From Desulfobulbaceae bacterium (GTDB lineage Bacteria; Desulfobacterota; Desulfobulbia; Desulfobulbales; Desulfocapsaceae): a DNA stretch of 39,717 nucleotides. The stretch spans positions 1 to 39,717 of the forward strand of contig JAABSV010000038.1 of NCBI GenBank assembly GCA_011390165.1, read 5' to 3'. The position numbers were made by a program, and so were the translations under genes. Positions 229 to 14,811 of the stretch are shown here, piece by piece. Positions within the stretch are counted from its first letter, which is position 1. Every line of letters starts with the position of its first letter. The notes under the pieces are model-generated. The model saw only the letters and a program-made list of their open reading frames with translations. It ran no database searches and was not told the origin of the DNA.

Positions 229-987
229 TCAGCACAGCTTGTAGCTGTCGAGAAGTTTGTCCACCGCCAGCACAGCCGGAGAATCGTCAGGCAGGTCGAG
301 GAGGGAACGACGGGCCATATCGAATTCGAGCAGGGCGGGGTCGTCGGGGATCACTCCGGCAATGGGGATACCGATCTCAGCTGCCTCGGCCAGAAAGGTC
401 TCGCCAAGTTCTGCCGGGCCTCTGGTGACGATGAGGGCAAGCTCCTTGACATCCAGCTTCAGGCCGACAAGCATGTCGTTGATCCGGCGGACCGCCCGCA
501 ACCCACGCAGGGAGTAGTCGGTGACCAGAAAGAGCAGGTCCACCCGGCCGCTGGTCCGACGGCTGAGGTGCTCCATGCCGGCCTCGTTATCAACCACCAT
601 GCAGCGGTAGTGTCTGCTCAGTTTGTCGGTAAAATTGTTCAGTATGTTGTTGACCATGCAGTAGCAGCCCTGACCTTCCTGGCGGCCCATCACCAGCAGA
701 TCGTAGTTGGCGGTTTCGATCAGGGCCTGCTCAACCAGGGTTTCCAGGTAGTTCACCTTGTCCATCCCGGAGGGAATTCCCTGGGGGTCTTTCATATAGG
801 TTTCCCGGATATCGCCGATGGTGGTATCAACCGGTAAGCCGAGTGTTTCTCCGAGATTGCTGTTCGGGTCGGCATCCACCGCCAACACCGGGGCAATCTT
901 ACGACCACTCATGGAGCGGATGACCAGGGCCGCCACCGTAGTCTTCCCTACCCCCCCTTTGCCGGCAAAGGCAATCACTGTACTCAT
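229..987 (-). CDS. cooC: CooC-type carbon monoxide dehydrogenase accessory ATPase
   Basis: A 252-residue P-loop ATPase of the MinD/SIMIBI class. The deviant Walker A motif GKGGVGKTT lies at residues 9-17, with AVDADPNSN near 36-44. A C-Y-C pair at residues 108 and 110 matches the CXC motif that binds nickel at the CooC dimer interface. In this family, ATP-driven dimerisation inserts Ni into the C-cluster of Ni-CO dehydrogenase (CooS/AcsA/CdhA), so a Ni-CODH or CODH/ACS should be encoded elsewhere in the genome. The start at 987 is chosen because AGGAG lies just upstream and the Walker motif then sits at the usual N-terminal position; the frame stays open to 1182 without family similarity. It is the last gene of the leftward cluster, about 210 bases after the HdrB-like gene. 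Assignment is confident; the CODH subtype it serves cannot be told. Confidence 0.9.
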   Translation of the reverse strand: MSTVIAFAGKGGVGKTTVAALVIRSMSGRKIAPVLAVDADPNSNLGETLGLPVDTTIGDIRETYMKDPQGIPSGMDKVNYLETLVEQALIETANYDLLVMGRQEGQGCYCMVNNILNNFTDKLSRHYRCMVVDNEAGMEHLSRRTSGRVDLLFLVTDYSLRGLRAVRRINDMLVGLKLDVKELALIVTRGPAELGETFLAEAAEIGIPIAGVIPDDPALLEFDMARRSLLDLPDDSPAVLAVDKLLDSYKLC

Positions 988-1196
988 AGCAGACTCCTGA
1001 CAGGTGTTACTCTTCACCGGGCTGGCCGGATAAAGAAACGTATCTGTTTGCGGGCACACCACCACCTCGGGCGGCCCGGTTTCGTGTGCAATCGAACAAT
1101 AACCACCATTTTGGGGAAAAAAAGGCAAAACCGCCGCCGCTACCTGGCATGACAGGTTGTCGAGGCCAGGCAGCGGCGGCAAGGGGGAGGTGGAGG

Positions 1197-2180
1197 TCAG
1201 GCGGATGCAGCTGTTTCTCTGGCCTTTTTGATCTTATTGGTCTTATCGGTTTTATCGGCCATTTTAGCCTTTCGGGCAGGTTTTTGTACCGGAACAATGA
1301 GTCGCTGGCGCAGTGCCTCGAGGTCGTCGGCGTTGATGGTGCTGTTTTGAGCGATACCCAGGCTTTCCGTATCAATGCCGAGGCAAAGGCCAAGCAACTG
1401 CGGGTAGAGGAGAACCGGCAGGAACGCGTTAGCGGCGTGATCGGGTGAGGCCGGTAGTTTTTGTTGAGCGGTATCGAGTTGCAGATAGCAATAGGCGCAG
1501 ATCGGTGTGATATAGTGGGCGCCGGCGGCCCGGGCCATGGAGATTTTTTCGCTGAGCAGCGTGTTGGCCAGCGGGTCATTGATACCGGCCAAAGCGGCAC
1601 CACAGCACTCCAGCCGCCCACCCCAGTCGAGGCTGGTCGCCCCGGTCAGCTGCACCAGTTCGTCGCCGATTTTCGGGACAAAGGCATCATCGAAGCCGGT
1701 CAGTCGACGGGGCCGGAGAAGGTGGCAACCGTAGAGAAGAGCGATCTGTAGATCGTCGTAGACCATGGTCAATGCCTTGCGGATCTGTTCCGCCCCCACC
1801 TCCTCGTAGAGAAGACTGAGGTAGTGGCGGATAGTCGCTTTGCCGGAATAGTGAAGCCCCTCTCCGGCGAGAACGGTATTGCAGGCGCGAAGTTGCTCCG
1901 GCCGCTCGGCCATCACCTGGGCCGCCTTGCGGAGACTGGCAAAACAGCAGTTGCAGACCGCCACAATATCACGCCCGCTTCGTTCGGCGATGGCCAGATT
2001 GCGGACGGAAGGGAGGAGGTAGGCCTGCTCGTCGATATTTCGGGCCGGGTAGCCACAGCAGTTGAAATCGGCTTCTTCAACCAGTTCGATGGCAAATTTC
2101 CGGAAGACCGCAGTGAGGGCAGTGGCGTACTGGGGGATGCGGATCGGTATGTTGCAGCCGAGAAAGAGTGCGTAGTTCAT
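1197..2180 (-). CDS. HdrB-like CCG-domain protein (heterodisulfide reductase subunit B type)
   Basis: A 327-residue protein with two complete cysteine-rich CCG domains. The first uses C9, C41-C42, C76 and C79; the second uses C152, C192-C193, C228 and C231. The spacings (31 and 39 residues to the CC pair, then 33-34 to CxxC) fit the HdrB signature, which binds non-cubane [4Fe-4S] clusters that reduce disulfides or related substrates. The C-terminal 25 residues form a Lys/Ala-rich tail unlike the folded domain. The start codon overlaps the stop of the upstream membrane Hdr gene by 4 bases (ATGA), which implies translational coupling and a two-subunit complex resembling HdrDE or DsrMK. The physiological substrate is unknown; no CoM/CoB chemistry is implied in a bacterium. 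Confidence 0.85.
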   Translation of the reverse strand: MNYALFLGCNIPIRIPQYATALTAVFRKFAIELVEEADFNCCGYPARNIDEQAYLLPSVRNLAIAERSGRDIVAVCNCCFASLRKAAQVMAERPEQLRACNTVLAGEGLHYSGKATIRHYLSLLYEEVGAEQIRKALTMVYDDLQIALLYGCHLLRPRRLTGFDDAFVPKIGDELVQLTGATSLDWGGRLECCGAALAGINDPLANTLLSEKISMARAAGAHYITPICAYCYLQLDTAQQKLPASPDHAANAFLPVLLYPQLLGLCLGIDTESLGIAQNSTINADDLEALRQRLIVPVQKPARKAKMADKTDKTNKIKKARETAASA

Positions 2181-3904
2181 GTTTGAGCTCCAGCCTCAAT
2201 AAGGGCACTATTCTTCAGGGTGTAGAAGATATCGCAGAGTTCGACCTGGTTGGGACAGTTTTCCTGGCAGAGATAGCAGGTGGAGCAACTCCACAGCATC
2301 TTCGCCCCCATGGCCAGTTCGGTCTTGCCAATGCCCAGGCTGAAGATAATCTGGTGTGGAAGCATGCCGAGTGCCTCCACAGGGTGCTCGTAACTCCTTA
2401 CCACTGGGCAGATATTGCTGCACCGTGCACAGCTGTAACAGCCGAGATAAGAATGGTTGGCGATGCCGGTGCTTTCGGCTCCGTCCAGCTGGATCGGGCC
2501 AGAGAGGTCGGCGAGTCTTTGAAAACGTTGGCGAAACAACTCTGTCACCTTCTTCAGGGCCTGCAGGTGATCGCCGATCCGGACCTGGGCCAGGGCCAGA
2601 GGGAAGGAAAAATGGCTGAGCAGAGCGCTTTCCGGTGGTCCGTCGGCAAGCAGCTGGTAGCGGGAGTTGACAAAAATTTCCCGCAGGTTGATGCCGGAGG
2701 GGCATATGGTGGTGCAACGGTCACAACTGGTGCAAACGTAGAGACCTTGCTGCATCCTCTTCCAAACTGCGGGATCCTTCTCTTTACCGGCGGCAAATTT
2801 CTGCAGATACTGAACCTTCTCCGAAGGGAGAATGAACTCATTCTGGAAGCTGGCAAAGAACATTGACGATGAGCAGGCAACGCTGCAGGCACCGCAGTGG
2901 GTACAGGCCGACAGACCGATCATCTGCCGGTTGAGGAGGTTCGCCGGTTCCAGAGAGGGGTTTTCACCGCCGGCTCCCCTGATCAGGAGGTTAAGGGGGG
3001 CGGCAATAACGTGGAACATCTTGGCAAAGGGAAGCCAGGCGAGAAAGGCGAAACAGAGGAGGATATGCAGATACCAGAAAAAATTCACCGCTCCGGAGTC
3101 GCCAAGTATGGCTCTGGCCGGAGTGGCCACGCCGGCCAGGGCCATACTGGCAAAGGCATAGCGGTTGGAGACGTGGCACTCAGTGCAAGTTCCCTCGTTC
3201 ACCTCCTGGCCACGGGTTACCTGATCGGCGGCTGGCAGCTGGGGAAAATTGGCTGAGCTGAGGCCGTTCTCGGCAACCCAGAAGGCCTCAAGGGCCAGTT
3301 CATCCTCGTCGTTGGCAAAGGCGGCATATTCTTCCACCATCTCCTGGTAGACGGAGTAGGAGCGAATTCTGCTTCCTTCAAGCACCATTCCGGAGAGGAT
3401 GATGGCGGCAAGAAAGGCGAGAGCCGCCCAGTCGCTGGAATTGCTGCGCAATCGCCTCGTGCGCAGGCGAATTCGTCGAACGACGGCCAGGCCGATACCG
3501 GCCAGGACCAAAACCCCGAAGAGGTTGCGCAAAAAGAGGTAGGGGTTGAGGGTTGACTGGTAGTCAGGGAAAAGGGACTCGGTGATCTGTCCGTCCAGGG
3601 CGTGGAAGAGCAGAAGGCAGAGGAAACCGACGACAATGAGGGTGTGTGCCAGCCAGCGGGAGATGCCCTGGTCGAGAATCCGTTTCTGCAGGAGGGCATC
3701 AACGAGCAGGCTGCGCAGTGCCCGTAGCAGTCTACTGCTGAAAAGTGTTGCCGGGATGGTACGAAGGGCGGCAAGCAAGCGGCGGCCGACAGTGAGCGAA
3801 CTGTCCACCGGAGGGAGCCCCTGGCCAAACCAGGCGGCCAGGCGGTAGAACAGACCAACAGCAAAGACGATCAGGGACAGGGTCAGCGGAAGAGTCAGAT
3901 CCAT
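2177..3904 (-). CDS. membrane-bound cytochrome b/c with two HdrC-type 2x[4Fe-4S] modules
   Basis: A 575-residue fusion. The N-terminal half has about five hydrophobic segments with candidate heme-b histidines; H280 and H298 are 18 apart, as in NarI-type gamma subunits, and H87 and H101 lie in an earlier segment. A C-T-E-C-H c-heme site (240-244) sits in the loop before the last membrane segment. With a cytoplasmic C-terminus this loop would be periplasmic, as heme c attachment requires. The C-terminal half has four CxxCxxCxxxC motifs starting at residues 334, 391, 489 and 540, which is two HdrC units. It is translationally coupled to the HdrB gene and probably moves electrons between quinone or periplasmic cytochrome c and the CCG protein. 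The start at 3904 has GAGGG 8 bases upstream. A GTG at 3970 in the same frame lies inside a terminator-like hairpin and was not used. Confidence 0.82.
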   Translation of the reverse strand: MDLTLPLTLSLIVFAVGLFYRLAAWFGQGLPPVDSSLTVGRRLLAALRTIPATLFSSRLLRALRSLLVDALLQKRILDQGISRWLAHTLIVVGFLCLLLFHALDGQITESLFPDYQSTLNPYLFLRNLFGVLVLAGIGLAVVRRIRLRTRRLRSNSSDWAALAFLAAIILSGMVLEGSRIRSYSVYQEMVEEYAAFANDEDELALEAFWVAENGLSSANFPQLPAADQVTRGQEVNEGTCTECHVSNRYAFASMALAGVATPARAILGDSGAVNFFWYLHILLCFAFLAWLPFAKMFHVIAAPLNLLIRGAGGENPSLEPANLLNRQMIGLSACTHCGACSVACSSSMFFASFQNEFILPSEKVQYLQKFAAGKEKDPAVWKRMQQGLYVCTSCDRCTTICPSGINLREIFVNSRYQLLADGPPESALLSHFSFPLALAQVRIGDHLQALKKVTELFRQRFQRLADLSGPIQLDGAESTGIANHSYLGCYSCARCSNICPVVRSYEHPVEALGMLPHQIIFSLGIGKTELAMGAKMLWSCSTCYLCQENCPNQVELCDIFYTLKNSALIEAGAQT

Positions 3905-3924
3905 GTTGAATGCCCTCAATCCTG

Positions 3925-3973
3925 AAAAAAAACTGGTGAAGGTGACGGTGCCCGTCACCACTATTGTCACCGG
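3925..3973 (-). terminator. rho-independent terminator or attenuator ahead of the membrane Hdr gene
   Basis: Read on the minus strand there is an inner 8-bp stem (GGTGACGG/CCGTCACC, loop GCA). It is enclosed by an outer 7-bp stem (CCGGTGA/TCACCAG, one G-U pair), which is followed at once by eight T residues (complement of 3925-3932). This is a canonical intrinsic terminator shape. It lies 176 bases after the kinase stop and only 20 bases before the ATG at 3904. It therefore either ends the kinase transcript with a promoter hidden in the hairpin, or acts as an attenuator between the two halves of the cluster. Confidence 0.65.
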
Positions 3974-6822: not shown

Positions 6823-7206
6823 TCAAAGATTGTCCCTGACGATCTCCATAAGTTTGTCGAGATCGATGGGTTTGGGGACAAAGTCGTCGGCGAGGGTGGT
6901 CTTTCCCCCCATATGGGTGTAGTTGGTCGATTTGATCGCCTCGGTCACCGCAGTCAGGAGGACGATGACGATATCCTTGTACTCCTCGGAAGTCTTCAAC
7001 TCGTCGCACAGGGTGTAGCCATCCTTGCGCGGCATCATCACATCGAGGATGATCAGGGCGGGGCGTTCTTCCTTGATCCGGTCCATGGCTTCCAGGCCAT
7101 CGTAGGCCTTGGCCACCCGGAAATTCTCGCTGGCCAGCTTCATGGCGACCATCTCCACGAGATCGGTATCGTCATCCACCACAAGAATCAGTTTGTTTTC
7201 GCTCAT
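6823..7206 (-). CDS. CheY-like single-domain response regulator
   Basis: 127 residues forming only a receiver domain. The acidic pocket is D11-D12-D13, the phospho-acceptor is D55 (IILDVMMP), the switch residue is T85 and the conserved lysine is K112 (PKP). There is no DNA-binding or enzymatic output domain, so the output must be by protein contact, for example with the ACT proteins, or by phosphorelay. A TGGAGGA ribosome-binding site precedes the ATG. It lies between metF and the ACT/kinase genes, all on one strand, which suggests that the kinase encoded at 4149-5684 is its cognate partner. Confidence 0.93.
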   Translation of the reverse strand: MSENKLILVVDDDTDLVEMVAMKLASENFRVAKAYDGLEAMDRIKEERPALIILDVMMPRKDGYTLCDELKTSEEYKDIVIVLLTAVTEAIKSTNYTHMGGKTTLADDFVPKPIDLDKLMEIVRDNL

Positions 7207-7278: not shown

Positions 7279-8202
7279 TTATACCTGAGGTCGCGGGAGA
7301 AGTCCTGCCTTTTCGCAAATTTCCTTGACTATTTCTTCCCATTCGATTGCCATGATATGAAAGCCGGCGACCCCTTCTACCTGTTTCAAGCGTTCAATGG
7401 TCTCGACACAGATGGCAACACCCTCTTCGGCCTGTTTTTCCTTGGGTACCGAGGCCATCCGGTCGACAATCGCCTGGGGCACGTCCATCCCCGGTACCTT
7501 CTTGGCCATGTATCTGGCGGCACCAAGGGACTTACAGGGGGTGACCCCGGCGAGGATGTAACACTTCTTGTGCAGACCTTTGGCTCGTACCCCATCCATC
7601 CACCGTTCGAATTTTTCGACGTTGAAGATGCACTGGGTCTGGATGAAGTCGGCCCCGGCGGCAATCTTCTTGGCCAGTCGCATTACCCGCAGTTCGAAGG
7701 GGTCGGCAAAGGGGTTGGCGGCGGCGCCGATGAACATCTTCGGTGCCCCTTTCAGTTCAGCCCCTCCCTGGAAGATGCCTTTGTCACGCATGTCGCGAAC
7801 CATCTGGATCATCTGGATTGAATCGATGTCGTGGACGTTCATCGCCATCGGGTGGTCGCCGAATTTGGTGTGGTCGCCGGAAAGGCAGAGCATGGTATCG
7901 ATGCCCAGGGCATAGGCACCGATGATGTCGGCCTGGATTGCCAGGCGGTTCCGGTCGCGGCTGGTTACCTGGAAGAGTGGGTTCAACCCTTCCTGCTTGA
8001 TGATCGTTGAAGCGGCAAGACTCGACATGCGGACCATCGCCGTCTGGTTGTCGGTAACGTTAATGGCGTCGACCACCCCTTTGAGATACTTTGCCTTCTC
8101 TCGGACCTTGTCAGGCAGGGCGCCCCTGGGGGGACCACATTCCGAGGTAACCGCCAGATGTCCTGCCGCTAATATCTTTTCCAGTCTGCTTTCAGTTTTC
8201 AT
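7279..8202 (-). CDS. metF: methylenetetrahydrofolate reductase (MetF, canonical copy)
   Basis: A 307-residue TIM-barrel flavoprotein that reduces 5,10-methylene-THF to 5-methyl-THF in the methyl branch of the Wood-Ljungdahl pathway. Residues matching those of E. coli MetF are visible: the acidic residue in TSECGPPRG (Glu28), the Asp in LCLSGDHTKFGD (Asp120) and the Gln in FIQTQCIFN (Gln183). The start at 8202 overlaps the metV stop by 4 bases (ATGA), with AGAGGA upstream; the longer open frame to 8475 only shadows metV. With MetV, HdrA and MvhD it should form a MetFV-Hdr-type complex in which FMN in MetF receives electrons through MetV. Whether the flow is bifurcating with NADH or ferredoxin, or is run in oxidative direction, cannot be read from sequence. 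Confidence 0.93.
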   Translation of the reverse strand: MKTESRLEKILAAGHLAVTSECGPPRGALPDKVREKAKYLKGVVDAINVTDNQTAMVRMSSLAASTIIKQEGLNPLFQVTSRDRNRLAIQADIIGAYALGIDTMLCLSGDHTKFGDHPMAMNVHDIDSIQMIQMVRDMRDKGIFQGGAELKGAPKMFIGAAANPFADPFELRVMRLAKKIAAGADFIQTQCIFNVEKFERWMDGVRAKGLHKKCYILAGVTPCKSLGAARYMAKKVPGMDVPQAIVDRMASVPKEKQAEEGVAICVETIERLKQVEGVAGFHIMAIEWEEIVKEICEKAGLLPRPQV

Positions 8203-8867
8203 TCTGCCAGATCCTCTCTGATAATCTTTCTCGGGCCGCTGCCGCCAGCCGGTCGCCAGTCTTTTGCCGGCATAATGTCCAGATACCGTTCCGTCTGCCC
8301 CAGGGCCTTCAGCCGGTCCCAGATCAGTTGCCAGACACAGTCCACATCGTCGCTGATTTCGCAGTGGCCGCCGGTGGAGCCGCCACAGGGGCCGTTCATC
8401 AACTGTTTGGCGCAACGGGCGATGGGACAGATACCACCGGTGACACCAAGCAGGCAGTTCCCGCAGCCCTGACAACGCTCCGCCCAGACCCCCTGTCGTT
8501 CCGAGGCGCCCATGAACTTGGTGTTGACCGCCGGGAATACCGGTTTGTCACGAAACCGTCCGGCCAGTTGCTGCACCCCGCAACCACAGGCCATGGACAT
8601 GATGGCCTCAGCCCCGTCCAGCATCGGGACCAGTTCCTCGACGTATTCCGGGTCGCACTGCCGTTCCAGGGTGTGCTGGCGGATCTCGATGTTGCTGCCG
8701 CTCTTCAACAGGGCCATCTGCAGGCCCGAGGCGAGGAGGCCGACCTCCTTACGGCCACCGGCGGCGCAGACGGTGACGCATTCGTTGCAGCCGAGCAGGA
8801 GGATCCGTTTGTAGGGTCGGATGAATTCGATTAACTCTTCCAGAGGTTTTCGTTCAGCTGTGATCAT
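8199..8867 (-). CDS. metV: MetV, Fe-S/zinc partner of methylenetetrahydrofolate reductase
   Basis: 222 residues, rich in cysteine, of the family annotated as the C-terminal domain of bacterial methylene-THF reductase. The N-terminal half has GCNECVTVCAAGG; the middle has MACGCGVQ; the C-terminal third has CQGCGNCLLGVTGGICPIARC and then NGPCGG and HCEISDDVDC. These ligands fit the MetV fold with [4Fe-4S] clusters and a zinc site. MetV carries electrons to the flavin of MetF and stabilises the MetFV complex in acetogens. The gene is coupled to metF by a 4-base overlap and follows mvhD by 44 bases. Identification is confident from the cysteine pattern and the partner genes. Confidence 0.9.
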   Translation of the reverse strand: MITAERKPLEELIEFIRPYKRILLLGCNECVTVCAAGGRKEVGLLASGLQMALLKSGSNIEIRQHTLERQCDPEYVEELVPMLDGAEAIMSMACGCGVQQLAGRFRDKPVFPAVNTKFMGASERQGVWAERCQGCGNCLLGVTGGICPIARCAKQLMNGPCGGSTGGHCEISDDVDCVWQLIWDRLKALGQTERYLDIMPAKDWRPAGGSGPRKIIREDLAE

Positions 8868-8911: not shown

Positions 8912-9334
8912 TTAGAGGGCGGTTGCCGTGCGGATCGGGCTGGGGCCCAGGGCACGGATTTTCTCGGTAATTTCAGTGGCGGTCTGGGCGAAACGCTGTC
9001 CCATGCCGGCAGAGATCATCACCATCTCCAGCCGTTCGCTCTCGATACCGATCTCTTCAAGATAGTTCTTGACGTAGGCGATTCGCCGGGCGGCACGTTC
9101 GTTACCATTTTTGAAATGGCAATCACCTTCCAGGCAGCCAGCTACATAGACCCCATCCGCCCCCTTTTCGAAGGCCTTGATGATGTGCAGGGCATCCACC
9201 TTGCCGGAACAGGGGACACGGATGATCTTGACGTTTGCCGGATAGGGCAGGCGCTGGCTGCCGGCCATGTCTGCGGCGGTATAGGCGCAGTAGTGGCAGC
9301 AGAAGGCGACAATGACCGGTTCAAATTTTTCCAT
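8912..9334 (-). CDS. mvhD: MvhD-like [2Fe-2S] electron-transfer subunit
   Basis: 140 residues of the MvhD family, the small [2Fe-2S] protein that links hydrogenase or other input modules to HdrA. Key features are FCCHYCAY (C12, C13, C16), RVPCSGK (C42), AGCLEGDCHF (C67, C72) and a KNYLEEIGI helix; spacing and length match family members of about 140 residues. The ATG overlaps the hdrA stop by one base (TAATG), so it is coupled to hdrA. In MetFV-HdrABC-MvhD complexes it is proposed to pass electrons between HdrA and MetFV or an outside partner. No hydrogenase genes are present in the window, so the electron donor or acceptor is open. Confidence 0.92.
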   Translation of the reverse strand: MEKFEPVIVAFCCHYCAYTAADMAGSQRLPYPANVKIIRVPCSGKVDALHIIKAFEKGADGVYVAGCLEGDCHFKNGNERAARRIAYVKNYLEEIGIESERLEMVMISAGMGQRFAQTATEITEKIRALGPSPIRTATAL

Positions 9335-12300
9335 TATACTGGTATCCTTTCAAAGAGTTGTTCGACTTTGGCAAGAATTCTGTCGTCTTCAAACTGCATC
9401 AGCTGGATTGCCTTGGCCGGACATTCGGCAACGCACATGCCGCAGCCGTGGCATTTGGCCGGATCAATCTCCGAGTAGCCGTCGGCGTTGATGAAGGGGA
9501 CGCCGAAGGGGCAGGCCCGGACACAGATGAGACAGGCGGCGCAGAGTTTGCCTTCAACCCTGGCGGTGGCGGCCCCGAGGTTGATGGCATCCCGGGCAAG
9601 CATGGTCTGGGCCCGCGAGGCGACCGCGTTGGCCTGGCTGATGCTCTCCTTGATCAGTTTTGGAGAATGGGCGGTGCCGGCAACGAAGAATCCAGGTACC
9701 GGCAGGTCCACCGGTCGCAGTTTGACGTGGTCCTCGAGGAAAAACCCGTCCGCCGTCCGGGGCAGTTTGAAGATCATCGCCAACTCCTCGCTGGAGTCGG
9801 CATCGCTGACCATGCCGGTACTGAGGCAGAGGGCGTCGGCGACAACGGTCAGTTCTCGACTGAGGATCGGGTCGTAGAAACTGACCTCCACCTGGTCACC
9901 GGCGGTGGTGGCAACCGGTGGCCGATCAAGGCTGTAGCGGCTGAAGATCACACCCTTTTCCCGGGCCCGCTGATAGTACTCCTCGTGGAAGCCGAAGGTC
10001 CGCATGTCCCGATAGAGGATGAATATCCGCGCCTCCGGGTTGATTTCGAGAATCGCCAGGGCGTTCTTGATTGCCGCCTGGCAGCAGATCCGCGAGCAGT
10101 TGGGATTTTCCGGAACCCGGCTGCCGACACACTGAATCATCACGACGTTGTCCCACTGCCGCACCGTCTCCGGCTGGTCAGTGAGAAATTGCTGGGTTTC
10201 AATCTGGGTACGAACTGCCGGCGACTGATCAAGGAGATAGGTGGCCGGCCGGTTCGCCATCGCCCCGGTGGCAAGAATGGTGATACCGTGTTCCAATTGG
10301 CGGTAAAACATCTGTGGTCCGCTCTGCATGCCGGTCTTGAACATTCCCGGCATGCCGCTGTGATCAACCACCAGGGCCCGGGTGAACACCTGAATTTTCG
10401 GGTGCTTTTCCACCCGTTCGATCAGTTTGCCGACAAAGTCCCGGATATCACCGCCCTCGATGGTTTTTACCAGTTTCCTGGCCATTCCACCCAGTTGCGG
10501 GCTCTTTTCGAGGAGATAGAGCTGGAATCCCTGGTCGGCCAGTTGCAGGGCCGCGGTCATTCCGCTGACCCCGCCGCCCACCACCAGGATGTTCTTGTTA
10601 ATGGGCAGGCTCTGGTCGCTGAGCGGCTGTGCCTTGACCACCGCCGCCACGGCCATGTGTAGGAGATCCCGGGTCTTGCTCAGCGCTTCGGCTGGTTTGC
10701 CGGAATGTACCCAGGTGGACTGATCGCGGATATTGGCAATTTCCAGCAGGTACTTGTTGATCCCGGCCCGGGCCAGCAGTTCCTGAAATTTCCCCTGGTG
10801 GGTGCGCGGCGAACAGCCGCCGATGACCACCCGGTTCAGGCCCTCATCGACAATGGTCTGGCGGATATTGTCCATGGAGAGACGGCTGCAGCCATGCCCC
10901 TCCGCCTTGGCGACCACCACGTGGGGGAGGCGGGCGGCATCTTCGACCAGGCTGGCGACATCGATTACCCCGCCAATATTGTCGCCGCAGTCGCAGATGA
11001 AGACCCCGACCCGGGGCTCTTCACCGCTCACATCCCGCTCTCTGGGCAGTACTGCCTCCTCATCGTCGGGGATTTTCCTGGCAGCGGGGAGGTCGGCACC
11101 GGCCATACAGGCGGCGGCACTGCCCTGAACCATGGTTTCCGGGATGTCTTTTGGGGCTTCAAAGGTGCCGGCAACATAGATTCCCGGTACCGAGGTCACC
11201 ACTGGGTTGAAGATATCGGTCACCGGGAAGAAATCGGCATTCATCTCGATACCGGTTTCCGCCGCCAGCCGGCGGCTTGCCGCCGAAGTCTTGAAGCCGG
11301 TAGCGAGAACCACCATGTCAAACTCTTCGGTGATCTGGGTGGTGCTGTCATCGACAGTGTAGGTGATGGACAAGCCGTCCGCCCCCTCGGGCTGGACAAT
11401 GGAGTGGGGTCGACTGCGCAGGAAGCGGACGCCGCAGTCGTTTTTTGCCCGGTTGAGGTAGAGTTCGTAATCCTTGCCGAAGGTCCGCATGTCCATATAG
11501 AAAATGGTGGTCTCGATGTCCTCCTGGAAACGTTCCTTGGTGACCATCGCTTCCTTCAGGGCAAACATGCAGCAGGCGTGGGAACAGTAGGCACCAGCCC
11601 CCTTCTGCAGTCCGCGGGAGCCGATACACTGGATCCAGGCCACCTTCTTTGGCTGCTGACCGGTTGAGGGGCGGAGCAGTCGGCCGGCGGTTGGGCCGGA
11701 CGCGGAGAGAATCCGCTCGTATTCCAGGCTGGTTACCACGTCGGGAAAGGAGCTGTAACCGAGATAGTCGAGATGGCTCGGGTCAAAAAGTTCTGCCCCC
11801 GGGGAAAGGACGATGGCGGCACAGCCGACTTCCCGGGTGGTGGTGATGTCATCCGGGTTGATTGCCCCGGCCGGACAGACCGCCACCAAGGCTTGTACAT
11901 CCGTGCAGCTGGCCAGATCGATGGAGAAGGCCTGGGGGGTGGCCTGTGGGTAGCGCATGCAGGTCGGGGCGCGATGGTCCAGGCCGGCATTGAATTGGAC
12001 ACATTCCGGGAATGCCTGCAGACATTCGCCGCAGGCGGTGCATTTCTCCAGATTGATATAGCGTGGGGCGGTCTGCAGGCTGACGGTGAAATTTCCCTTG
12101 CTCCCCTTGACCGCTACCACCTCTGTCATGGTCATCAGTTCGATATGCTGCTGGCGACTGCCCTCGGAGAGGTGAGGGGAGAGGGTGCAGAGATCGCAGT
12201 TGTTGGTCGGAAAGGTTCGGTCGAGCTGGGTCATCAGGCCGCCGATGGTGTGGGCCCGGTCAACCAGAATGACATCCTTTTCCGCCTCGGCCAGGTCAAG

Positions 12301-12381
12301 GGCCGTCCGGATCCCGCCAAGACCGCCACCGACAACCAGTACCTTGTTCTTTTGGCTTTGCAAGCGAGTTGAGTTCTGCAT
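9334..12381 (-). CDS. hdrA: HdrA-like flavoprotein, two HdrA modules in tandem
   Basis: 1015 residues. Two FAD-binding Rossmann motifs are visible: VVGGGLGGIRTALDLAE (about 16-32) and VVGGGVSGMTAALQLAD (about 600-616). The first module contains an unusual Cys insert (C114, C117, C120, C127, then C159 and C169) and YCSHACCMF (C266, C270, C271). The C-terminus ends in two ferredoxin motifs, CAACLICVRACP and CHGCGMCVAECP. HdrA carries the FAD that splits electrons in flavin-based bifurcation. The long form with a second HdrA-like half is the type found with metF, metV and mvhD in acetogens and sulfate reducers. The residue often replaced by selenocysteine in some HdrA proteins is encoded as Cys here; the frame has no internal UGA. 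Start at 12381 with AAAGG seven bases upstream. Confidence 0.93.
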   Translation of the reverse strand: MQNSTRLQSQKNKVLVVGGGLGGIRTALDLAEAEKDVILVDRAHTIGGLMTQLDRTFPTNNCDLCTLSPHLSEGSRQQHIELMTMTEVVAVKGSKGNFTVSLQTAPRYINLEKCTACGECLQAFPECVQFNAGLDHRAPTCMRYPQATPQAFSIDLASCTDVQALVAVCPAGAINPDDITTTREVGCAAIVLSPGAELFDPSHLDYLGYSSFPDVVTSLEYERILSASGPTAGRLLRPSTGQQPKKVAWIQCIGSRGLQKGAGAYCSHACCMFALKEAMVTKERFQEDIETTIFYMDMRTFGKDYELYLNRAKNDCGVRFLRSRPHSIVQPEGADGLSITYTVDDSTTQITEEFDMVVLATGFKTSAASRRLAAETGIEMNADFFPVTDIFNPVVTSVPGIYVAGTFEAPKDIPETMVQGSAAACMAGADLPAARKIPDDEEAVLPRERDVSGEEPRVGVFICDCGDNIGGVIDVASLVEDAARLPHVVVAKAEGHGCSRLSMDNIRQTIVDEGLNRVVIGGCSPRTHQGKFQELLARAGINKYLLEIANIRDQSTWVHSGKPAEALSKTRDLLHMAVAAVVKAQPLSDQSLPINKNILVVGGGVSGMTAALQLADQGFQLYLLEKSPQLGGMARKLVKTIEGGDIRDFVGKLIERVEKHPKIQVFTRALVVDHSGMPGMFKTGMQSGPQMFYRQLEHGITILATGAMANRPATYLLDQSPAVRTQIETQQFLTDQPETVRQWDNVVMIQCVGSRVPENPNCSRICCQAAIKNALAILEINPEARIFILYRDMRTFGFHEEYYQRAREKGVIFSRYSLDRPPVATTAGDQVEVSFYDPILSRELTVVADALCLSTGMVSDADSSEELAMIFKLPRTADGFFLEDHVKLRPVDLPVPGFFVAGTAHSPKLIKESISQANAVASRAQTMLARDAINLGAATARVEGKLCAACLICVRACPFGVPFINADGYSEIDPAKCHGCGMCVAECPAKAIQLMQFEDDRILAKVEQLFERIPV

Positions 12382-12512: not shown

Positions 12513-13385
12513 TCAGAGCTGTGCCATGTCGAGGATTGTCGGCAGTTTATGCTCCCAGCCAAGGGTCTGGATGACAACCCCCTGGCAGCTGTCACGCAGG
12601 GTCTGCACGGTTTCACCGGCGATTTTCAACCCCTCCTGTTCCCGGTCGGAGGATTTACGGATGCGGCGGATCAGGTCGTCGCCGATCCGGGCGCCGGGGT
12701 CGGAGTTGGCGATATACTGGGCAATGGCCAGGGATTTCAGGAGAAAGACGGTGGCGAGTACCGGTACGCCGAGACTTTGGGCGGCCTTCAGGAAGGAGGC
12801 GGAGAGTTGTGGGTCAAAGATCGGCGGGGTGACGATGTAGGTGGCACCGGCTGCCACTCTGGCCCGGGCACTGTCAAGGGCGGTGGCCATCTCCTCGTCG
12901 TTGCTGAACGGGCTGATCGCCGTGCCGATGGAAAAATCGGGGGCCCCGTCGAGATCAAAGCCACTGATATCCTTGCCTTCCTGCAGTTTCTTCAACGCCT
13001 CGATCAGGCCGATCTCATCAAGGTCGTCGACGACCTGCGCGTCACTGTGGTCACCATCAGCCATTTCGGTACTGTTGGCAACGATGATATTTTGTACTCC
13101 GAGGACATGGGCGGCCAGGGCATCGCCCTGCAGGGCCATACGGTTGCGGTCGCGGCAGTACATGTGGATGATGGTCTCCACCCCCTGCTGTTGGAGGAGG
13201 ACTGCGCCGGCAAGGGCACTCATCCGCATGATGCCGTTGTCCATGTCTGGGACAACCACGGCGTCCACTCGTCCCTTCAACCGTCGCGCATCGTTGACCA
13301 GCCTGGAGATATTGACCCCTTTCGGGGTGTGCATTTCGGCCAGAACAGCGAACTCTTTTGCCGCTAATCGTTTTTGAAAACTCAT
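12513..13385 (-). CDS. diverged MetF-family protein (second paralogue)
   Basis: 290 residues with the MetF TIM-barrel pattern (AEMHTPKG near residue 16, YCRDRNRMALQGDALAAHVLG near 75-95). It is clearly distinct from the canonical copy at 7279-8202. The catalytic acid equivalent to Glu28 is kept (VLAEMHTP). The loop holding Asp120 reads VANSTEMADGD instead of LSGD. The folate-contact Gln183 region reads IVTPPIFD, so Gln is replaced by Pro. This suggests weak or no methylene-THF reductase activity and a role as a flavin or structural subunit, or a different pterin substrate; that is inference. It lies between the Hdr selenoprotein and hdrA, so it probably belongs to the same complex. The ribosome-binding site GGAGGG lies 11 bases before the ATG. 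Confidence 0.8.
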   Translation of the reverse strand: MSFQKRLAAKEFAVLAEMHTPKGVNISRLVNDARRLKGRVDAVVVPDMDNGIMRMSALAGAVLLQQQGVETIIHMYCRDRNRMALQGDALAAHVLGVQNIIVANSTEMADGDHSDAQVVDDLDEIGLIEALKKLQEGKDISGFDLDGAPDFSIGTAISPFSNDEEMATALDSARARVAAGATYIVTPPIFDPQLSASFLKAAQSLGVPVLATVFLLKSLAIAQYIANSDPGARIGDDLIRRIRKSSDREQEGLKIAGETVQTLRDSCQGVVIQTLGWEHKLPTILDMAQL

Positions 13386-13407
13386 GGGTTTCTTTTCCCT
13401 CCAAGTC

Positions 13408-13462
13408 AGAACATGAGCAAAACCTGCTCAGAACATGTTCGGAACATGTTCGGAACATGCCG
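13408..13462. repeat. array of GAACATGTTC-like palindromes, 11-bp period
   Basis: Three adjacent 11-mers (agaacatgttc 13430-13440, ggaacatgttc 13441-13451, ggaacatgccg 13452-13462) repeat at one helical turn. A fourth partial copy lies at 13408-13419, beside a GAGCA/TGCTC hairpin. Two copies contain the full palindrome GAACATGTTC. The array fills the 106-base gap between the Hdr selenoprotein and the second metF. It may be a regulator-binding array or an mRNA structure. No binding protein is known to me. Confidence 0.6.
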
Positions 13463-13491: not shown

Positions 13492-14811
13492 CTACAGGGC
13501 GGTTTCGGGGTGAAAAACATCGACATCTTTCAGGTCGTCACCAAGGTAGGCCCGTTCGTTGGGCCCGAGAATGCCGAGGGAAAGACAGATCAGCGTCCAG
13601 ATATGGACGGTGCCATAGCTTCCGCCGAAGTGGTGGGCGACGTCATGGACCTGGGCATGGCAGTTGTGACAGCCGGTGATACAGTAATCGGCACCGGTGG
13701 CAATGATCTGGTCGAACTTGACCTTGCCGTAGGTCCGGCGTGCCTCGGTATAACCGGACTGGAGGAAGCCACCACCGCCGCCGCAACAAAAGTTGTTCGA
13801 CTTGTTGGGGGTCATTTCGATCACATTCTCTTCGCCGACCACCGAACTGATCACAAAGCGGAGATCATCGGCGATCACATCGCCAAAGCTCTTCCTGACA
13901 ATCTGACAGGGATCCTGAACGGTAAACTTGATCTTGCGTTCCCGGTTCCACTCCGAACTCACCTTCAGACGGCCTTCACGGATCCATTTGGCGTAATAGG
14001 TGTAGATGGAGGCAACCTCAAACTTATGCTCGATATTGAATTTTTTCAGTCCGGCCCGGACTGAGAAGGTGATGTGGCCTCATTCCGTGTTGAGAAAGAC
14101 CTTGCAGCCGAGTTCATCGGCCTGTTTTGCCGAGACGCGGGTGACCCGCTCCCAGCATTCGTTGTCGGCGAGGAAGAGGCAGTAGTTTTCAGCCGCCCAG
14201 CCCTTGCTGCCATAGGTCCAGTCGACGCCGGCAAGATGGAGGATCTTCCACAGCGGCACCATCTCGTCCGGTTCAGTTACCGGTTCGCGGGAATTCTGGT
14301 TGAGAAAGAAAAAGGCTCCTGGCTTGTCGACGGGGGCCTCCATCTCGGCGAATTCGGGCTGGGAATCGCGATACTCTTCCAGTACATCCTGGACGACAAA
14401 GACAAAATCATCCGGCGCGGTGCCCATGGCACTGTTGGAGTCGTTGCGCAGAGCCATATCACACGATTTGACGATCCCCGAGGGGCGGGTCTCCCGAGGC
14501 CACTCCGCCCGGGCATTGTAGACCAGTTGCGGGATATCAATTTTCATCGGGCAGACATAGACGCAGCGCTGGCACATTGTGCACATCCACACCCACGGCG
14601 ATTTGACGGCTTCCTCATCGAGCCCCATGGCGACCATGCGCAGGAACTTGCGGGGGTCCATATCCTCAAGACCGGTCGCCGGGCAGCCCGAGGCGCAGGC
14701 ACCGCAGGTGAGACAAAGCTGCAGATTACCACCATCAGGGATGATCCCCTTGGCCTTGTCGAGAAAGGAGCTCTGTTTCTTTCCTTTGATTTTGACGGTA
14801 CTTTCTGACAT
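13492..14811 (-). CDS. HdrC-HdrB fusion (HdrD-like) Fe-S protein, probable selenoprotein
   Basis: One 439-residue product if the in-frame TGA at 14080-14082 is decoded as selenocysteine (residue 244). The N-terminal HdrC part has two [4Fe-4S] motifs, CLTCGACASGCP (from C33) and CTMCQRCVYVCP (from C77). The C-terminal HdrB/CCG part has C302, C342-C343 in FCCGGGGG, and CITGCHNC (377-384). The UGA falls in L-N-T-E-U-G-H, exactly where related Fe-S oxidoreductases have Cys in an E-C-G-H motif. The frame continues without a start signal and with family sequence on both sides. A SECIS-like hairpin follows 16 bases after the UGA. The gene is first in the cluster and would be the thiol/Fe-S output of the HdrA-MvhD-MetF complex. 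Read instead as a true stop, it would give a truncated HdrC (243 aa) and an orphan CCG fragment. Start at 14811 has AAGGA upstream. Confidence 0.85.
14047..14082 (-). promoter_or_regulatory. UGA codon plus bacterial SECIS-like hairpin
   Basis: On the minus strand the UGA (14082-14080) is followed after 16 bases by CAGTCC-GGGCC-GGACTG (14063-14047), a 6-bp perfect stem that can be drawn with 7 bp and a 3-base loop. Flanking UUCU/AAAA bases extend it with one mismatch. The apical loop starts with G and lies about 22 bases from the UGA, inside the spacing range known for SelB-bound bacterial SECIS elements. The fold was judged by eye only. Confidence 0.65.

Follow-up and report, generated by a model that had tools for sequence, protein, structure and literature searches.

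A predicted selenocysteine-containing HdrC-HdrB fusion protein encoded with MetF, MetV, MvhD and HdrA in a Desulfobulbaceae bacterium

A gene for an Hdr-type Fe-S protein in a Desulfobulbaceae bacterium is interrupted by an in-frame UGA, raising the question of whether this codon ends translation, results from error or decay, or is decoded as selenocysteine (Sec), and, if decoded, to which enzyme the Sec residue belongs. We investigated the stretch of 39,717 nucleotides that carries the gene, referred to here as the window, computing UGA conservation, Cys/Sec exchange at one alignment column, the SECIS element, sel genes, the operon and the alignment of cluster ligands. Feature coordinates are collected in Table 1.

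Table 1. Features of the Sec gene and of its conserved neighbours in the window
Feature	Coordinates	Strand	Remarks
Predicted Sec-containing HdrC-HdrB fusion (HdrD/GlpC-type Fe-S oxidoreductase)	13492..14811	minus	439 aa read through
HdrC-like part, residues 31-102	14506..14721	minus	two CxxCxxCxxxC cubane [4Fe-4S] motifs, C33-C43 and C77-C87
UGA codon 244, predicted to be read as selenocysteine	14080..14082	minus	context N-T-E-U-G-H
Bacterial SECIS hairpin	14046..14064	minus	8-bp stem, GGC loop, starts 15 bases past the UGA codon
CCG domain, residues 297-388	13648..13923	minus	Pfam PF02754 E 4.1e-11
Second MTHFR-domain protein (MTHFR2), possibly degenerate	12513..13385	minus	Pfam MTHFR E 1.1e-19
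HdrA, 1015 aa, HdrA2-like, double	9334..12381	minus	NF040770 829 bits, below cut-off 1100
MvhD (FlpD) with Cys	8912..9334	minus	Pfam FlpD E 8.6e-53
MetV (MTHFR C-terminal / DUF5981 protein)	8199..8867	minus	Pfam PF12225 E 2.4e-37
MetF, methylenetetrahydrofolate reductase	7279..8202	minus	Pfam MTHFR E 2.9e-42 on the longer listed ORF; start set by eye at MKTESRL
Response-regulator receiver protein	6823..7206	minus	named by eye; last gene of the conserved order

The sequence-only reading placed the gene at 13492-14811, and these coordinates hold, but the coding strand is the minus strand, with the ATG at 14811 preceded by the ribosome-binding-like AAAAGGAA and the end at 13492; the frame on the plus strand is a different one and does not represent the gene. 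The claim that an HdrC-like and a CCG/HdrB part share one frame was borne out, as the 439-codon read-through is interrupted solely by the TGA at 14082-14080, and its translation confirms the N-T-E-U-G-H context reported for codon 244. The protein has the HdrC arrangement of two [4Fe-4S] motifs, the eight cysteines of which are invariant in a 45-row alignment, and TIGR03290 (HdrC) matches residues 31-102 with an E value of 8.7e-15 and 55 bits, below its cut-off of 160. The CCG domain provides C302, C342, C343, C381 and C384 as ligands of a predicted noncubane [4Fe-4S] cluster, and the TGA is situated between the HdrC and CCG domain matches, outside the latter. No NCBIfam model passes its own cut-off for the Sec protein, the nearest being TmcB and HmcF (156 bits each, against cut-offs of 735 and 750, respectively); the cut-offs for DsrK (106 bits against 400) and E. 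coli-type GlpC (39 against 278 and 34 against 280) are likewise not reached.

The UGA is conserved without exception in the close relatives of the gene. A scan of relatives with one genome per species found 332 loci, the best 80 of which were kept as the named loci, and TGA occupies column 244 in 80/80 of these best 80 of 332 as well as in 29/29 further relative loci (L024-L052), the 109 matches representing 87 distinct DNAs with exactly one in-frame stop each. The sequence-only reading had named independent reads with TGC or TGT as refutation; independent assemblies, cultured strains included, have TGA in 109/109 matches and never TGC or TGT. Desulforhopalus singaporensis DSM 12130 and Desulfofustis glycolicus DSM 9705 are two such cultured carriers of the TGA. 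A search of 193 genomes, including that of the window, gave the same picture: all 38 near-full-length matches listed at at least 82% identity, among them the window's own gene, have one TGA, while two of three fragments at this identity have one TGA and the third stops short of codon 244. Residues E243, C/U244, G245 and H246 are invariant in all 45 aligned proteins. A pseudogene or a sequencing error, with TGA in place of a lost TGC or TGT, is hardly conceivable, since, although some paralogues have Cys at column 244 and one base change yields TGA, the same codon recurs in every one of the 109 matches and purifying selection acts on both sides of it.

Two coupled genes, one HdrC-like and one HdrB-like, with a real stop at the UGA and a restart downstream, would be in keeping with the existence of HdrB and HdrC as separate subunits elsewhere. 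The statement that the TGA is not followed by any start codon having a ribosome-binding site was nearly right, yet a GTG is present at 13962 (codon 283, 39 codons past the TGA) with GAAGG approximately 10 bases upstream. However, codons 245-282, between the TGA and this GTG, are conserved as protein, with an amino acid identity of 0.863 and a pN/pS of 0.185 compared with 0.178 before and 0.169 after in 69 distinct orthologues, an equal constraint at the protein level that is not accounted for by a second, independently started gene. Furthermore, TAA or TAG never substitutes for TGA in the 109 matches, the Cys paralogues are HdrC-HdrB fusions lacking any stop, and a hairpin following the UGA is under selection, making coupled genes very improbable. 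TGA conservation, codon constraint and hairpin selection thus lead us to reject a pseudogene, a sequencing error and coupled genes alike.

The conserved hairpin after the UGA, TCAGTCCG-GGC-CGGACTGA at 14064-14046, is a bacterial SECIS, an element on which the sequence-only reading was silent, and its loop and distance to the UGA fit those of bacterial SECIS elements; searched with Rfam at the gathering threshold, the window gave no match, SECIS included. Pairing was evaluated in 123 TGA sequences, corresponding to 89 distinct 48-mers, in which a mean of 7.78 of the 8 positions are paired (8 in 70 sequences, 7 in 18 and 6 in one). Synonymous codon re-draws following family usage (1000) gave a mean of only 4.75 pairs with a maximum of 5.20 and an sd of 0.14, which understates the true spread as the sequences are related, indicating that coding alone does not explain the hairpin. 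Pairing fell to 1.2-3.9 pairs across the 123 sequences once the 3' arm was shifted by 1-3 bases. Compensatory changes are observed at three pairs, GC to AT at 21-33, TA to CG at 22-32 and GC to TA or AT at 25-29, and in distant paralogues the stem is preserved although its sequence differs (CAACCC/GGGTTG). Synonymous divergence is also lowered across codons 245-282, with a pS of 0.555 compared with 0.742 before and 0.746 after, as expected of an RNA element.

Absence of sel genes had been named as a further refutation; the genome has all of them, tRNA-Sec, selA, selB and selD. The tRNA-Sec, with anticodon tca, is located at the best Rfam match (70.4 bits against a cut-off of 47), a search which by itself is weak, as a second match in this genome (47.2 bits) is a tRNA-Ser according to ARAGORN and 5/14 control genomes pass the model. 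Matches to selB (333 bits, cut-off 242), selA (575 bits, cut-off 268) and selD (372 bits, cut-off 125) exceed their cut-offs, which two, one and two of the 14 controls pass, respectively; the selA match spans profile positions 80-454 only and ends at the end of its stretch, and selD itself contains one TGA. Among 13 genomes searched, selA was found in 12, and the exception, G076, has a copy of the gene with one in-frame TGA. Reassignment of UGA to Trp is ruled out by the presence of a tRNA-Trp with anticodon cca and by Cys at column 244 in some paralogues. Combined, the reading of codon 244 as Sec is a well-supported interpretation of this gene from its sequence and that of its relatives.

Sec and Cys exchange at column 244 among the further homologues and paralogues. 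Twenty further homologues, fetched for being more distant or for having no TGA and including two paralogues from the window's genome, have TGA in 12 cases and TGC in eight, and the first own-genome loci, counted by the best match per locus, have two TGA and three TGC. The TGC loci L015 and L021 are one gene, and a second match in L115, a more distant paralogue, has TGT. Homologues lacking Cys at this column, the remaining refutation named in the sequence-only reading, are not what is seen: column 244 holds either Cys or Sec, and its codon in paralogues is TGA, TGC or TGT. Survival of the SECIS in Cys paralogues was considered and rejected, as 9/10 Cys sequences retain only 3-5 of the 8 pairs; the mean over the ten, two of which are the same gene, is 3.8, and consensus folding of nine Cys sequences gave no hairpin at the SECIS position. 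The tree requires four Sec/Cys changes; its program warned that long branches meet in the deep part, and we therefore assign no direction to these changes.

One Cys version, L138:7325-8512, lies within an otherwise Sec branch, has kept its HdrA-MvhD neighbours and comes from a genome (G034) that has selA. It is likely to represent a recent Sec-to-Cys change, and its hairpin, alone among the ten Cys sequences in having 6 of 8 pairs, may be a fossil of that change. The idea that Cys replaces Sec only after loss of the Sec machinery was not borne out, since G034 still has selA.

The position of U244 with respect to the Fe-S clusters was addressed by comparison with known structures. An AlphaFold model of the Sec protein has a mean pLDDT of 88.1, and its best structural match in the PDB is mycobacterial EtfD, with a TM score of 0.67 by query length, followed by HdrB chains; phmmer against the PDB at E 0.001 detected HdrB and HdrC chains only, and neither DsrK nor HdrD. 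In EtfD, the noncubane cluster D2 is liganded by Cys637, 672, 673, 709 and 712 and by His583, according to the extract available, and in HdrB the bridging cysteines of the clusters (Cys81, Cys234) are displaced by substrate in the same extract (PMC13083937). In a profile alignment with EtfD, residue pairs being counted by eye, C302, C342, C343, C381 and C384 align with the five D2 cysteines and H246 with His583. U244 aligns with Cys581, a ligand of cluster D1, while the other D1 ligands, Cys503, 538 and 584, align with G165, W198 and I247. HdrB contains two CCG domains with five Cys each; here there is one CCG match, and the first CCG half is degenerate, its ligand positions being G165, W198, U244 and I247. 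The proposal that Sec replaces a CCG cysteine holds in part, as U244 is not among the five of the intact domain but is the sole ligand position left in the degenerate first half. By this alignment a single noncubane cluster is predicted, with the site of the second one taken by U244 alone, which precedes the histidine ligand of that single cluster by two residues.

Genes for MTHFR2, HdrA, MvhD, MetV, MetF and a response regulator follow the Sec gene downstream on the same strand, so that the Moorella-type gene set (MetF, MetV, MvhD, HdrA and HdrB/HdrC functions) is present in one cluster; no separate HdrB/HdrC pair was seen between 6.8 and 14.8 kb of the window. Related stretches were searched over their whole length and on both strands for homologues of the window's proteins, at E 1e-15 and 40% coverage. 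The order Sec gene-MTHFR2-HdrA-MvhD-MetV-MetF occurs in 30/80 named loci, 24 of which add the response regulator only. An MTHFR-type gene (MetF, MetV or MTHFR2) is found in 55/80 named stretches, HdrA or MvhD in 57/80 and either group in 60/80; for full-length stretches the MTHFR-type figure is 28/34. The remaining 20/80 have no Met or Hdr neighbours within their stretch, 15 being shorter than 17 kb and five being full 17-kb stretches, which places some orthologues outside this operon.

The 20 further stretches were author-chosen and are not independent, and two of those with a Cys copy span only 9.0 and 4.2 kb. In this set HdrA and MvhD accompany 12/12 TGA copies and 1/8 Cys copies, that of L138, and MetF/MetV accompany three copies only (L146, L147 and L152), all of them TGA. 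Thus, 9/12 TGA copies have HdrA and MvhD in the absence of MetF, indicating that Sec associates with HdrA-MvhD more than with MetF, and in these author-chosen, non-independent stretches selenocysteine tracks the HdrA-MvhD partnership. Two copies from the window's genome, with neighbours named by eye, differ in surroundings: a Cys copy (62%) adjoins glycerol kinase, GlpA and GlpB, and a Sec copy (35%) adjoins a hydrogenase protease, HdrA and hydrogenase genes, so that the name 'GlpC' suits one branch only. As an additional observation, the 35% Sec paralogue at L134:7490-8941 has an N-terminal stretch resembling a helix-turn-helix by eye (SQLAEEFGVHRNTIRNWINSG) fused to HdrC-HdrB.

These neighbourhoods bear on whether the Sec protein is instead a shared HdrD/GlpC-type module that can dock on more than one kind of HdrA-MvhD assembly, with the MetF neighbourhood as just one such setting. 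The TGA copies with HdrA and MvhD alone, the 5/34 full-length stretches lacking any nearby Met or Hdr gene and, by eye, the location of other copies beside GlpA/GlpB, HdrL or hydrogenase genes would fit such a module, but the recurrence of the complete six-gene order in the named loci, together with the retention of the same partners in rearranged orders (for example HdrA-MvhD-Sec gene-MetV-MetF or MetV-MetF-HdrA-HdrA-MvhD-Sec gene), argues for a dedicated association, and we regard the shared module as unlikely.

Several features of the surrounding DNA were also recorded. Between the Sec gene and MTHFR2, at 13406-13460, an array of 11-base repeats includes two exact GAACATGTTC palindromes (13431-13440 and 13442-13451; 0.04 expected in the window), possibly a regulator binding site or an iteron-like array. 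Alignment of MTHFR2 with MetF shows SGD changed to NST and TQ to TP, at FAD/folate contact positions, and no PDB chain was matched by MTHFR2 at E 0.001; from its sequence, MTHFR2 may be a structural pseudo-enzyme. In related stretches L053-L132, in-frame TGA is seen in HdrA (TNDC[AS]M-U) in 14/81 alignment pieces and in MvhD, mostly as CCxY-U-GY or G-U-HFGDCH, in 22/63, at positions where the window's own HdrA and MvhD have Cys. Sec in MetF was rejected, as in all seven matches containing a stop this codon falls beyond the gene, where the alignment ends. A second electron-transfer cluster is encoded on the same strand at 229-3970 by CooC-like (by eye), HdrB-like and QmoC-like genes, the QmoC-like protein having two dicluster ferredoxin parts; around the Sec gene in the named stretches this HdrB-like gene is found in 1/80 and the QmoC-like gene in 0/80.

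Taken as a whole, we consider it probable that the gene encodes a genuine selenoprotein of the UGH family, with a SECIS-decoded UGA-244, which takes the part of HdrBC in a complex with MetF, MetV, MvhD and HdrA and presents Sec to a sulfur substrate at a cluster. Complex formation, the position of Sec at the cluster, the direction of electron flow and the substrate are what we infer, the complex of MetF, HdrA and MvhD with the Sec protein being inferred from operon conservation. The UGA would be decoded as Sec through the SECIS hairpin just downstream, and the product would serve as the HdrBC arm of the complex. Electrons would pass between the folate-bound C1 unit at MetF/MetV, MvhD and the HdrA flavin, and next through the two cubane clusters of the HdrC part to the single noncubane [4Fe-4S] cluster that the CCG domain would bind. 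Sec244, occupying the place of the second HdrB/EtfD cluster beside this noncubane cluster, may act with it in forming or cleaving a bond in a sulfur substrate, one half going to the Sec and the other to the cluster. The substrate would probably be a protein with a disulfide or trisulfide, for instance DsrC; DsrC as the acceptor is a guess by analogy with the proposal made for FlxABCD-HdrABC in the part of the source that we draw on (PMC5296606). Alternatively, by analogy, the acceptor could be the quinone pool, a link proposed for Thermacetogenium in the portion of that report consulted (PMC6895022). A selenium-dependent hexaheteromeric MTHFR, in which the acceptor is handled at one noncubane [4Fe-4S] cluster and one selenol that replace the two-cluster disulfide site of HdrB, is a tentative extension of this reading that we hold to be rather less than an even prospect.

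Annotation that treats every UGA as a stop would split or truncate this C1-pathway subunit in these sulfate reducers. Should the Sec arm indeed be part of the MTHFR complex, it would mark the binding place of the electron acceptor of the Moorella-type MTHFR, offer a chemical handle on that acceptor through selenol trapping and tie C1 metabolism to the selenium supply; if the selenium-dependent MTHFR is real, C1 oxidation or reduction would be selenium-dependent in many sulfate reducers. Sec/Cys paralogue pairs within one genome constitute a natural test of the contribution of selenium to noncubane-cluster enzymes. The points of interest are the branch in the MTHFR operon, the strict conservation of the UGA, the association of Sec with HdrA-MvhD and the possibility of one cluster plus Sec.

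The selenoprotein family itself is already known, and the assertion that Sec-containing Hdr-type or Fe-S oxidoreductases occur in deltaproteobacteria is upheld by the UGH family and HdrD4 in the literature. In the sections of the published reports available, a 2026 review lists the 'Fe-S oxidoreductase-like protein' with motif UGH as a high-confidence predicted selenoprotein family (PMC13188914), five GlpC selenoproteins and an operon glpC-hdrA-frhD-frhG-frhA are given (PMC1794560), an Fe-S oxidoreductase is among 34 putative selenoproteins (PMC8318568), and five Sec genes are named for Desulfococcus multivorans, none of this kind within that section (PMC5109826). The window gene has the U-G-H motif with UGA, a SECIS downstream and Sec-decoding genes in its genome, and so resembles the 'GlpC' Fe-S oxidoreductase-like selenoprotein (PTHR43551, UGH) in its UGH Sec and deltaproteobacterial family. 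A paralogue in the same genome (G000:C47), with E-U-G-H and near hdrA and hydrogenase genes, resembles the glpC-hdrA-frhD-frhG-frhA operon, whereas the window gene is 35-37% identical to it and accompanies MetF/MetV and a second MTHFR rather than hydrogenase. What appears to be new is the MetF-operon branch, in which a predicted Sec HdrC-HdrB fusion takes the place that HdrBC has in the Moorella-type MTHFR and shares a conserved operon with MetF, MetV, MvhD, HdrA and another MTHFR-like gene; searches of the open-licence literature found no mention of a selenoprotein as the HdrBC arm in an MTHFR cluster, which is not proof.

HdrD4 of Desulfobacterium autotrophicum HRM2 contains selenocysteine, HdrD corresponding to HdrC plus HdrB, as described in the passages available (PMC2702500). 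By this description, the window protein is like HdrD4 in being of HdrC+HdrB type, with HdrD4 having no transmembrane part, and in containing Sec; it differs in that MetF of strain HRM2 is grouped with other Wood-Ljungdahl genes, those passages (PMC2702500) stating no link between hdrD4 and MetF. With EtfD and the two-cluster CCG proteins HdrB and HdrD, the Sec protein shares the fold and the five Cys and one His of a noncubane cluster, but its first CCG half lacks cluster ligands save the Sec position. EtfD has a membrane part, by the description available, and none is apparent in the Sec protein, the 439 residues of which are filled by the HdrC-like and HdrB-like parts. The nearest enzyme complex, as far as the published extracts describe it, is the MTHFR of Moorella thermoacetica, a hexaheteromeric MetFV-HdrABC-MvhD with an unknown second acceptor or reactant, and an HdrC-HdrB fusion within a MetFV-HdrABC-MvhD-type cluster is described for marine Chloroflexi in one of these sources (PMC9012536, PMC5736913, PMC6085437). 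As in Moorella, MetF, MetV, MvhD, a double HdrA and HdrB/HdrC functions are clustered, here known from genes; unlike that complex as described, HdrB and HdrC are fused into a single polypeptide that has just one CCG cluster site and a predicted Sec, and an extra MTHFR-like gene accompanies the set.
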